This document shows positions 11,981 to 61,352 of a stretch of 64,000 bases of DNA, piece after piece. Below the pieces are notes generated by a model. It did no database searches. It worked only from the letters and a program-made list of their open reading frames with translations, and was not told where the DNA came from. The DNA comes from Cryomorphaceae bacterium. Lineage in GTDB: Bacteria; Bacteroidota; Bacteroidia; Flavobacteriales; ECT2AJA-044. Location: assembly GCA_017798125.1 (NCBI GenBank), contig CP059070.1:1302001-1366000 (forward strand). The letters run 5' to 3'. The stretch's first letter is position 1. Each line of letters opens with the position of its first letter. Made by a program: the position numbers and the translations under genes.

Positions 11981-12696
11981 GACTTCAATAATCGGTTAAA
12001 ATGTATTCGGCTAAAAAGCAGGTACAAAAGTAAGCTAATCGGTATACCTGTCCAACCAAAGAAGCCAAGACTCGCACCCATGGAAAAGAGCATCAGATAT
12101 TTCCACTTATTCTCTGCCCATCCACGGCCCGATCCTTTAAAACTCATCAGCGGAATATTCGAGACCATCAGCAGCGAAATCACCACCGACCACACCGCAA
12201 TAAGTAGCGGACTCAGCCAAAGACTATCGCCCGCTCCGTACGTGTAGTAGAGCGGAATGAACAGCGAGGCCAAGGCCATAGCTGGTGTCGGGAGGCCTAA
12301 AAAGTGTGTCTTTTGATCGGTACTGATGTTGAATTTGGCCAGTCGAAATGCGGAGAAAAGCGGAATCATTAAGGGTGCCTGCGGCACGATGTCCCAAGCC
12401 CAGTTTCCAGTTCCTCCATTGGCTCCGCCCAACTCCGCCGATAAGGTGTACAGTAAGAGTCCTGGTGCAACCCCGAAGGTGACCACATCGGCCAGTGAGT
12501 CCAGTTGAACACCCAATGGGCCAGCTACGCCTAGCGCTCTGGCGGCAGCTCCGTCAAACAGGTCCGCAAGGGCTCCTAAAATGATGCAAAAAGCCGCCCA
12601 CTTGAAGTTGCCGTGAAAGGCATAGATAATCGAAAGTAAGCCAAAGAGCAGATTGCTCATGGTTAGGGCGTTGGGTATGGCTGATCTCCAATTCAT
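11977..12696 (-). CDS. pssA: CDP-diacylglycerol--serine O-phosphatidyltransferase
   Basis: Makes phosphatidylserine, precursor of phosphatidylethanolamine, at the inner membrane. 239 residues from ATG 12696 (MNWRSAIPNALTMSNLLFGLLSI is the usual PssA start; longer frames exist upstream). The CDP-alcohol phosphotransferase signature is complete: D..DGAAAR.(8).G...D...D, read as DLFDGAAARALGVAGPLGVQLDSLADVVTFG. Several membrane segments follow. A GTGCC/GGCAC hairpin repeat lies inside the frame, coding for IVPQAP. Cotranscription with purS is likely. No psd gene is seen here. Confidence 0.94.
   Translation of the reverse strand: MNWRSAIPNALTMSNLLFGLLSIIYAFHGNFKWAAFCIILGALADLFDGAAARALGVAGPLGVQLDSLADVVTFGVAPGLLLYTLSAELGGANGGTGNWAWDIVPQAPLMIPLFSAFRLAKFNISTDQKTHFLGLPTPAMALASLFIPLYYTYGAGDSLWLSPLLIAVWSVVISLLMVSNIPLMSFKGSGRGWAENKWKYLMLFSMGASLGFFGWTGIPISLLLYLLFSRIHFNRLLKS
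12375..12391 (+). repeat. 17-nt hairpin repeat, copy 2 (GTGCC/GGCAC stem), inside pssA
   Basis: GTGCC-TGC-GGCAC-GATG. Perfect 5-bp stem, loop TGC, GATG tail. Encodes D-I-V-P-Q-A on the minus strand. Confidence 0.7.
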
Positions 12697-59797: not shown

Positions 59798-60440
59798 GTC
59801 TTTGCGCTTGTGGATTGTCGATGATCAGCCGCGACAGCGGCAAGTGCTCCGTGAAAAGCTGAGTTTCTTCTCCGGACTTGAGGTCTTGGGGGAATCCAGT
59901 GATGGGCGTCAAGCTTTGCGTGATTTGGAAGGACTGGATATCGATGTGGTGCTGATGGATTTGGAGATGCCCCATATGAATGGGGTAGAGGCCACGCTTC
60001 GTCTAAAGTCTTCGGGATTTGTGGGTCGTGTCCTCATTGTGACCGTGCTGGAGGATGACGACAGTGTTTTTCAAGCCATTCGCGCGGGGGCTGATGGTTA
60101 TGTGCTCAAGGACATTCACCCTCAAAAACTTAAAGAAGCCCTTGATGAGTTGGCCGAAGGGGGAGCTCCAATGAGTCCGACCATCGCCGCTAAGGCACTC
60201 CGGCTTTTGAGAACGGGTGTTGTTGAGGCTCCGGTTGAAGAAGAGGAAGTGTCCATCAGCAAGCGTGAGCAAGAGGTCTTGGAACAGCTCGCGCTGGGAA
60301 AGGTCTATTCCGACATTGCGGAATCCCTCACCATCTCTCCCTACACGGTGCGCAAGCACATCGAAAACATCTACGGCAAGCTCCAGGTACACAACAAGGT
60401 GGAGGCGGTGGCCTACGCCAAGCGGGTTGGGATTATTTGA
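59790..60440 (+). CDS. LuxR/NarL-family response regulator
   Basis: 216 residues; ATG overlaps the kinase stop by 8 nt. Receiver domain with VDDQP and phospho-acceptor Asp57 in VVLMDLEMPHMNG, conserved TVLEDDD and GYVLKDIHPQKL, then a C-terminal GerE-type HTH (SISKREQEVLEQLALGKVYSDIAESLTISPYTVRKHIENIYGKLQVHNKVEAVAYA). The pair forms a NarL-type two-component system. Targets unknown; a hairpin repeat follows the stop. Confidence 0.95.
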   Translation: MSESLRLWIVDDQPRQRQVLREKLSFFSGLEVLGESSDGRQALRDLEGLDIDVVLMDLEMPHMNGVEATLRLKSSGFVGRVLIVTVLEDDDSVFQAIRAGADGYVLKDIHPQKLKEALDELAEGGAPMSPTIAAKALRLLRTGVVEAPVEEEEVSISKREQEVLEQLALGKVYSDIAESLTISPYTVRKHIENIYGKLQVHNKVEAVAYAKRVGII

Positions 60441-60510: not shown

Positions 60511-61056
60511 CTAATCCGGGCAAACAAGAGACTTTTCTCTTTTCTTCCTGTTTATTTTGATGACAATTCCAGGCGTCAAAATGGCTAGGCCTATCAAGCC
60601 GCCGCTTATAGCAGAAACACCAAAGATCGTGGCATAAGGAGTTCCTTCACCTGAATTAAACCTAAGAGCTTTAGCGCCTATCACTGCACTTCCTAAAAGG
60701 AAATATCCTCCAATCCATAAAAAAGCATTTGCCTTGCGGTTGTAGTAGCTTTTATGAACATAGAGCGCTTCATTGCATGAGTTGAATGTTATTGGCACGG
60801 TCAATTCCGTTCTTGTTGTCGGTCGGAATGCTCTTCGATCGGGTCTTCTGTACTCAAGAGTTACGGTTTCCATTTTATCCAAGGACCACTCCACAGGTTG
60901 CGAGATCTTAAATTCATGAATAATGGCTCCTCCATCTTTGTCCAAAAATGCTTGAATGTACCTCACATGACTCTCCGTCGAGTCCAGTGTAAAGTAGGTT
61001 TGTCCTTGAATGGTGAACCCAAGAATCAAAAGGTATAGGAGTGTCATCCCTTTCAC
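60511..61056 (-). CDS. Hypothetical membrane protein
   Basis: 181 residues. Signal peptide (MKGMTLLYLLILGFTIQGQ), a charged soluble part, and two membrane helices near the end (AFLWIGGYFLLGSAVIGAKAL, YATIFGVSAISGGLIGLAILTPGIVIKI) with a basic tail. No motif recognised. It lies between the response regulator and the tRNA region on the opposite strand. Coding is likely because the signal peptide and helices are coherent. Confidence 0.65.
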   Translation of the reverse strand: MKGMTLLYLLILGFTIQGQTYFTLDSTESHVRYIQAFLDKDGGAIIHEFKISQPVEWSLDKMETVTLEYRRPDRRAFRPTTRTELTVPITFNSCNEALYVHKSYYNRKANAFLWIGGYFLLGSAVIGAKALRFNSGEGTPYATIFGVSAISGGLIGLAILTPGIVIKINRKKREKSLVCPD

Positions 61057-61150
61057 AATTTGAAAATTACCAATTTTCTAGTGATGGATAAAGGGGATTT
61101 GAGATTACCCCTTCGCACGCGAAGGGTTGATCGGGTGGGGGCCTTTACAG

Positions 61151-61274
61151 CATTTAAACCCGTTCGCTGCTGCGCAGCGTTACGGGTTTTCTTTTCCCTG
61201 ACCTTACAGAAGCAAGCTTCTGACGGCCCGAAAAAAGAAAACCCGTCCTCACTTCGTGAAGACGGGTTTAAATG
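61151..61274. repeat. Nested inverted-repeat element flanking a hairpin (MITE-like)
   Basis: Outer arms CATTTAAACCCGT (61151-61163) and its exact complement ACGGGTTTAAATG (61262-61274). Inside, ACGGGTTTTCTTTT (61182-61195) pairs with AAAAGAAAACCCGT (61233-61246), and there are two simple hairpins, CGCTGC-TGC-GCAGCG (61165-61179) and CAGAAGC-AA-GCTTCTG (61207-61222). It has no coding content. Either it is a pair of opposed terminators or a miniature inverted-repeat element. Confidence 0.7.
61231..61270 (-). terminator. Rho-independent terminator of tRNA-Val
   Basis: On the minus strand AAACCCGTC ... GACGGGTTT, loop with an inner TCAC/GTGA-type stem, followed by a T-rich TTCTTTTTT. It begins 8 nt after the tRNA 3' end. 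Confidence 0.75.
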
Positions 61275-61277
61275 TTG

Positions 61278-61352
61278 TGGGCAATGAGAGATTCGAACTC
61301 CCGACCCCCTCGGTGTAAACGAGGTGCTCTGAACCAGCTGAGCTAATTGCCC
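61278..61352 (-). tRNA. tRNA-Val (anticodon TAC)
   Basis: 75-nt cloverleaf on the minus strand: acceptor GGGCAAT with ATTGCCC, D stem GCTC/GAGC, anticodon stem CCTCG/CGAGG with loop TTTACAC (anticodon TAC, Val), T stem GGGAG/CTCTC with TTCGAAT loop, discriminator A. The 3' CCA is not encoded. Promoter at 61397-61426 and terminator at 61231-61270. Confidence 0.97.

Follow-up and report, generated by a model that had tools for sequence, protein, structure and literature searches.

Directly 3′ of a tRNA-Val gene in the genome of a Cryomorphaceae bacterium lies a set of nested inverted repeats, which raises the question of what kind of element they form. The initial annotation offered three identities, namely a MITE, two fused terminator copies or the scar of an integration at the tRNA, and overall this proposal was partly borne out. 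The locus was analysed within a 64,000-nt stretch of contig CP059070.1 (the window, to which all positions refer), in the 2.84-Mb genome and in related genomes.

Architecture of the locus next to tRNA-Val

The perfect 13-bp outer arms and the second perfect 14-bp inverted pair that had been described were confirmed. The outer arms (61151–61163 and 61262–61274) are complementary at 13/13 positions, with pairing that extends to 16/17 at 61147–61163 and 61262–61278, and the inner arms (61182–61195 and 61233–61246) are complementary at 14/14. In the whole 64-kb window, these are the only two pairs of perfect 13-bp inverted repeats located within 130 bp of each other. Both of the simple hairpins reported earlier are real (61156–61190 on the plus strand and 61238–61269 on the minus strand), and a central one, CAGAAG-CTTG-CTTCTG at 61207–61222, brings their number to three. 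Folded as RNA, the 130 nt that follow tRNA-Val have a predicted energy of −69.6 kcal/mol (−33.8 ± 3.8 kcal/mol for dinucleotide shuffles; z −9.5, 0/200), and the same segment folded as DNA has a z of −9.0. The predicted fold is a cloverleaf-like four-way junction. In the minus-strand direction, starting where tRNA-Val(TAC) ends, it is composed of the outer arm CATTTAAACCCGT, the near hairpin, ACGGGTTTTCTTTTTT, the central hairpin, AAAAGAAAACCCGT, the far hairpin and the outer arm ACGGGTTTAAATG.

In agreement with the initial annotation, the right-hand hairpin is the predicted terminator of tRNA-Val(TAC), the gene of which ends at 61278, and the inverse half has no plus-strand gene just upstream: the nearest one ends at 60440, and the open reading frame at 60511–61056 is on the minus strand. 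This half also mimics a terminator as described, with a hairpin followed by CTTTTC. The near hairpin with its T-run passed a terminator scan, whereas the plus-strand site fell just short of the same scan. The extent first assigned to the structure (61151–61274) holds the inverted repeats but is too short. By the borders seen in relatives, the repeat unit comprises 187 bp, from 61293 in the T-loop to 61107, followed by a 6-nt direct-repeat remnant at 61101–61106. Its features are as follows:

61278–61352, minus strand: tRNA-Val (anticodon TAC), the host gene, whose 3′ end anchors the unit (ARAGORN, Rfam)
61278–61293, minus strand: first 16 nt of the unit, from T-loop position 58 to the discriminator base (AATCTCTCATTGCCCA), common to unit and tRNA (left boundary set by direct repeats of relatives)
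61262–61274, minus strand: outer helix P1, tRNA-side arm (CATTTAAACCCGT) (complementarity, fold; P1 covaries in the family)
61238–61269, minus strand: near hairpin with a T-run to about 61229, predicted intrinsic terminator of tRNA-Val (hairpin and terminator scan)
61182–61246, minus strand: central arm P3, in which 61230–61246 pairs with 61182–61198, including the 14-bp inverted pair (fold, covariation)
61207–61222, minus strand: apical hairpin CAGAAG-CTTG-CTTCTG, containing the best-kept sequence of the family, AAG-CTTG-CTT (family comparison)
61165–61179, minus strand: far arm P4, CGCTGC-GCA-GCAGCG in minus reading (fold)
61156–61190, plus strand: far hairpin with CTTTTC after it, resembling a plus-strand terminator (hairpin search)
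61151–61163, minus strand: outer helix P1, distal arm (ACGGGTTTAAATG) (complementarity, fold)
61101–61132, minus strand: right end, GATCA-hairpin-TAATCTC, a T-arm mimic region that closes with the direct-repeat remnant (family pattern)
61101–61106, minus strand: AATCTC, the 6 nt that remain of a direct repeat of the tRNA T-stem (letters checked)

A separate, dispersed repeat family is also present in the window. Its REP-like 17-mer palindrome GCGCCTACGGCGCGATG has 12 matches with up to three mismatches (0.17 expected), at 12375, 14786, 15455, 18366, 18929, 22160, 24018, 33295, 35618, 53445, 56312 and 60446, and similar sequences are found beside tRNAs of this genome.

A family of units at tRNA and tmRNA genes

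The initial annotation had suggested a search for further copies in the genome and for a target-site duplication. By sequence, no copies were found in the 2.84-Mb genome besides the other strand of the element itself and short chance matches, and beside the inverted repeats there is no target-site duplication of appreciable length, only AATCTC. The same nested architecture is nevertheless present at ten other loci, which gives 11 with the window copy: nine at tRNA genes (Arg, two Met, Asp, Ala, two Leu, Pro and Ser) and one at the tmRNA gene. The letters of these copies are quite different. Their shared layout starts at the 3′ end of the tRNA and continues with a terminator arm, a long CTTG-capped central arm, a second arm and a distal arm, which at the ten loci as in the window is complementary to the tRNA's own flank. 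A MITE or another dispersed inverted-repeat transposon would account for inverted arms around a short sequence, and its hallmark is dispersed copies with shared terminal inverted repeats and a target-site duplication. Here the sequence is single-copy, the arms are unrelated between loci, and all copies in the window genome sit on tRNA or tmRNA 3′ ends. This identity is thus contradicted and highly improbable.

As a genome-wide motif, AGCTTGCT is present at several tRNA 3′ ends but shows no overall enrichment (96 matches versus 93 in the control), so a covariance model was used instead. The first model, R1, was built from ten copies with the tRNA left out; both R1 and the later R2 were seeded with members picked by eye. 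In the window genome, R1 found one further locus, at the tmRNA 3′ end (E 1.8e-7), and no copies away from tRNA and tmRNA genes. Units were detected by covariance model in 60/296 genomes of the order and, with the refined model, in 142/395 genomes of the class and in 29/395 of a phylum-wide sample, where other classes were also positive. Schleiferiaceae bacterium McBI.9 and Algoriphagus marinus were among the positive genomes (E 8e-12 and 3e-12, respectively), and the 15 non-Bacteroidota genomes searched gave no match below E 0.02. Judged by one protein, this Schleiferiaceae genome is also the nearest named relative of the window genome (48% identity), which probably belongs to Flavobacteriales. 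No known RNA family matched the structure at its Rfam gathering threshold, and the weak matches up to E 10 were chance-like. Full-text searches of mainly freely accessible literature returned no description of such units in Bacteroidota, and only the literature on E. coli tRNA-linked repeats (TLRs) was relevant. These units of ∼175 bases on tRNA and tmRNA 3′ ends across Bacteroidota apparently form an undescribed family.

Among 139 copies, 107 adjoin a complete tRNA or tmRNA gene on the same strand, with starts −9 to +12 nt from the gene end and with hosts that comprise 13 amino-acid types plus tmRNA, and another 10 are later members of arrays. Two of the remaining 22 are a unit read on the reverse strand, most follow a 3′ fragment of a tRNA or tmRNA, and a few (e.g. 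L160 and L170) fall in neither group. Behind the tmRNA gene of the window genome (L133, about 1300–1630), there is a second, degenerate tandem unit with a copy that resembles the tmRNA 3′ end.

The fold is maintained by compensatory changes

The dimensions of the fold are nearly constant, with a length of 127.8 ± 5.5 nt and the cap located 60.5 ± 2.6 nt from the start. The cap, AAG-CTTG-CTT, is the best-kept sequence (CTTG in 61/100 copies and CTCG in 18/100). In an alignment of 100 distinct copies, 82.6% of the pair cells contain standard pairs (57.9% when shuffled), double changes are found at 43/43 pairs, including 13/13 in helix 1, and the covariation score is 0.539, compared with 0.163 for shuffled alignments and at most 0.128 with the partners slid. 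Because the structure itself guided this alignment, the pair counts are biased in its favor, and orthologous loci were therefore tested with plain MAFFT alignments. Six orthologous tRNA-Ser copies contained 19 double-changed pairs (7.5 when shuffled and at most 6 when slid), and the tRNA-Val units of two species of one genus (G166 and G101) differ by 9 double-changed and 2 broken pairs. The pairing is thus kept by compensatory change while the letters differ, at orthologous loci as well.

Unit borders, direct repeats and tandem arrays

In relatives, the units form tandem arrays of two to four members with a period of 170–186 bp. In 56/94 copies (13.9 with the right ends permuted), the tRNA 3′ end is directly repeated ∼40 nt past the fold, and the left boundary of this repeat is mostly at position 58 or 60 of the T-loop (18 and 14 cases, respectively). 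The repeats in the window genome measure 58 bp at Arg, 34 bp at Met and 23 bp at Asp, each followed by a second terminator, and 30–50 bp elsewhere in the family. Most single units repeat only 7–10 nt of the tRNA, and the window copy only 6 nt (AATCTC). The right end follows the pattern GGATCA..TAATCC in 28/95 units (1.4 shuffled). Since a strict test found an exact T-arm mimic in only 4/82 units (control 0.5), the mimicry is given as a tendency. Several draft contigs (G086:C41, G252:C254, G002:C120 and G025:C34) end in or beside a unit, so short-read assemblies are probably broken by such structures.

Inheritance of the units and their relation to recombinases

The sister species (G001) carries strongly diverged units at the matching Ser(GCT), Leu(TAG), Met and tmRNA genes. 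At its tRNA-Val gene, where the flanking DNA can be aligned on either side of the region upstream of the tRNA, a shortened remnant has kept the start and the right end but lost the middle. What would have spoken against the initial annotation, by its own account, is a bidirectional terminator that exists in one copy and is conserved at every tRNA-Val locus. This is not what was found, as the sister ortholog is this remnant and many other tRNAs carry the structure. At Gly and Leu(CAG), the sister species has units where the window genome has only a similar first terminator. The two look homologous on the tRNA side, which fits distal loss, or growth past an existing terminator, better than insertion of a whole unit. 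This comparison indicates that the units are inherited vertically, change fast with the pairing kept, and erode.

Among the three original identities, an integration scar at the tRNA comes closest, in that direct repeats of the tRNA 3′ end exist; however, these repeats fit the TLR class, and no recombinase is tied to them. In its stronger form, this reading makes the unit a mobile non-autonomous element that a tyrosine recombinase inserts at the tRNA T-loop, possibly as a folded single strand as in integrons, with the unit preserving the host tRNA by supplying a terminator and a tRNA 3′ end. The constant T-loop junction, the tandem arrays, the direct repeats (up to 58 bp) with a second terminator behind them, the patchy presence of units within a genus and the cassette-like array described below would all be expected of such an element. 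Mapping of the general integrase family PF00589 nevertheless revealed no regular linkage, and an adjacent integrase is not supported as the general driver of the units; unit-rich genomes such as G166 have three integrase-family genes. Att-like repeats are therefore present, as at tRNA-integrative elements, but a consistently linked integrase was not found. Furthermore, no clean pair of empty and occupied sites was found, the sister species comparison points to vertical inheritance and loss, and the integrase islands observed either have their beginning at the anticodon loop or are located outside the unit. We therefore regard mobility of this kind as rather unlikely.

Integrase islands do use the same tRNAs as the units (L172, L199 and L200). 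At L172 (2150–8455), a 6-kb island at tRNA-Val encodes a truncated tyrosine recombinase (PF13102) together with a protein that carries a type IX secretion signal domain, and the 221-bp direct repeats at its borders include a whole unit. The idea that this island is a cassette bounded by units was dropped: the anticodon loop is where its repeat begins, which makes the unit a passenger there. The array at L174 (G025:C34, 1–5024) is cassette-like and consists of segments of about 0.9–1.0 kb at a tRNA, each with one open reading frame of 128–153 aa without a Pfam match, the 3′ half of tRNA-Arg and a copy of the unit. One could envisage a tRNA-anchored cassette system of Bacteroidota, in which the four-way junction would be the tyrosine-recombinase site for units or small cassettes such as those of L174 at the T-loop of tRNA or tmRNA, with the tRNA regenerated and the E. 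coli TLRs as relics. We consider this decidedly doubtful.

Predicted termination and a scheme for the units

A terminator-like site was found on the tRNA strand in 97/100 units, on the other strand in 82/100 and on both strands in 81/100 (1.7 when shuffled). With a GC-rich hairpin and a T-run on each strand, the unit in its present state can be read with good support as a predicted bidirectional intrinsic terminator inside a conserved four-way junction. The fused terminator copies of the initial annotation are upheld to this extent. Selection might then only keep a hairpin and a T-run for each strand, and the outer pairing might be a by-product of similar stems. The both-strand counts agree with this simpler explanation, as does the window copy itself, in which all four arms have one common sequence, so that the outer pairing follows from the two hairpins. 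At tRNA-Ser, on the other hand, the outer helix (CAAGAAAGAAACC and GGTTTCTTTCTTG) lies outside the terminator stems, as in other copies, and helix 1 covaries throughout. A plain terminator also leaves the CTTG cap, the fixed length, the restriction to tRNA and tmRNA genes and the direct repeats of the tRNA unexplained. It is a possible account, if on the improbable side. The outer helix is unneeded for termination yet covaries, which makes it likely that the complete fold has a further role, for example in RNA processing or as a DNA or RNA fold bound by a protein.

Such a role could be that of a small RNA or processing element, in which read-through or a processed transcript releases a structured RNA, the ends being cut by tRNA-processing enzymes at the tRNA 3′ end and its repeat, along the lines proposed for the rrnB-linked repeat of E. 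coli. The covarying fold and its conserved CTTG-capped arm are consistent with this, and a small RNA has been proposed for E. coli RrB (PMC8144298). Little RNA would span the unit, however, given the strong predicted terminator at the start of nearly all units, and the 7–10 nt of tRNA repeated by most single units also argue against this explanation, which we consider fairly improbable.

We favor the following scheme. A unit opens inside the host tRNA at about T-loop position 58, taking in the last ∼16 nt of the tRNA, continues with ∼128 nt that fold into the four-way junction, and ends with ∼40 nt that close in a hairpin tending to mimic the T-arm, after which the T-stem and tRNA 3′ sequence restarts. 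The near hairpin would end the tRNA transcript, and the far hairpin would stop transcription of the opposite strand before it enters the tRNA in antisense, thereby shielding the tRNA. The constant restart in the T-loop suggests that units may arise and multiply when the T-arm and its mimic recombine or undergo slippage, and each such event would regenerate an intact tRNA; with no recombinase consistently linked to the units, this duplication step is put forward as an inference. Overall, the structure in the window is probably one copy of a Bacteroidota family of TLR-like units that follows this scheme, of which the anatomy, the anchoring on tRNA and tmRNA genes, the compensatory pairing, the tandem copies, the inheritance and the erosion come directly from the computations.

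Comparison with known systems

Integron attC sites, of which GTT/AAC core sites and an integron integrase are the hallmarks, show little sequence conservation, a strong foldback structure and a tandem arrangement. The Bacteroidota units likewise conserve the fold over the letters and occur in tandem copies, sometimes with small open reading frames between them (L174), but they are anchored at tRNA genes and not at attI. With bidirectional intrinsic terminators they share a hairpin and T-run readable on both strands, to which they add the covarying outer helix, the capped central arm, the restriction to tRNA and tmRNA genes and the direct repeats of the tRNA. REP/BIME palindromes are dispersed and have a common sequence. 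They resemble the units as short paired palindromes with several copies per genome, whereas the units are tied to tRNA 3′ ends and alike in fold.

The closest resemblance, by analogy, is to the E. coli TLRs. These number 22 at ten loci, each with a stretch of 18–19 bp that exactly matches the 3′ end of the tRNA or rRNA gene before it, and are also found at 5S rRNA genes (PMC8144298). They have been known since 1978 and, according to a 2021 paper, had no known function before its own small-RNA data on three of them (PMC8144298). The unit at tyrT/tyrV (rttR, RF00391 RtT) is located directly 3′ of the tRNA, and its tandem period is 178 bp (170–186 bp in Bacteroidota). At tyrV/rttR, the unit ends in a copy of the tRNA 3′ end that starts from the same T-loop base (AATCCTTCCCCCACCACCA) and is preceded by a complement of the T-stem (GGGGAAGGAT..TAATCCTTCCCC; E. 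coli K-12, 1285800–1287300, L280), a parallel that we have not seen remarked on. The Bacteroidota units share the location directly 3′ of a tRNA, with the window copy at a tRNA 3′ end and most of the family anchored likewise, and the occurrence at several loci per genome with one to a few units each (11 loci here, arrays of two to four in relatives). As E. coli keeps its 18–19 bp repeats while many Bacteroidota units have eroded to 7–10 nt, and as repeats of 58, 34, 23 and 30–50 bp are found in several members but only 6 nt in the window copy, the units are called TLR-like. The tyrV/rttR unit also lacks the four-way junction, scoring at most 8.4 bits with model R2 (E 0.21). Homology to RtT was not found by covariance model. 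Scans with RF00391 gave 134–138 bits for the E. coli repeat used as a positive control, but neither the window nor any of the family loci covered was matched.

Equally long units with an identical T-loop restart, in another phylum and at hundreds of loci, provide a comparative data set beyond E. coli alone. They make two old questions testable, namely of what use the units are to their tRNA and why the sequence restarts at the same base across so many tRNA genes. Annotation would gain as well: these regions are now unlabelled, several draft contigs end there, and they contain a fold that has no match to an Rfam family and is kept by compensatory change.
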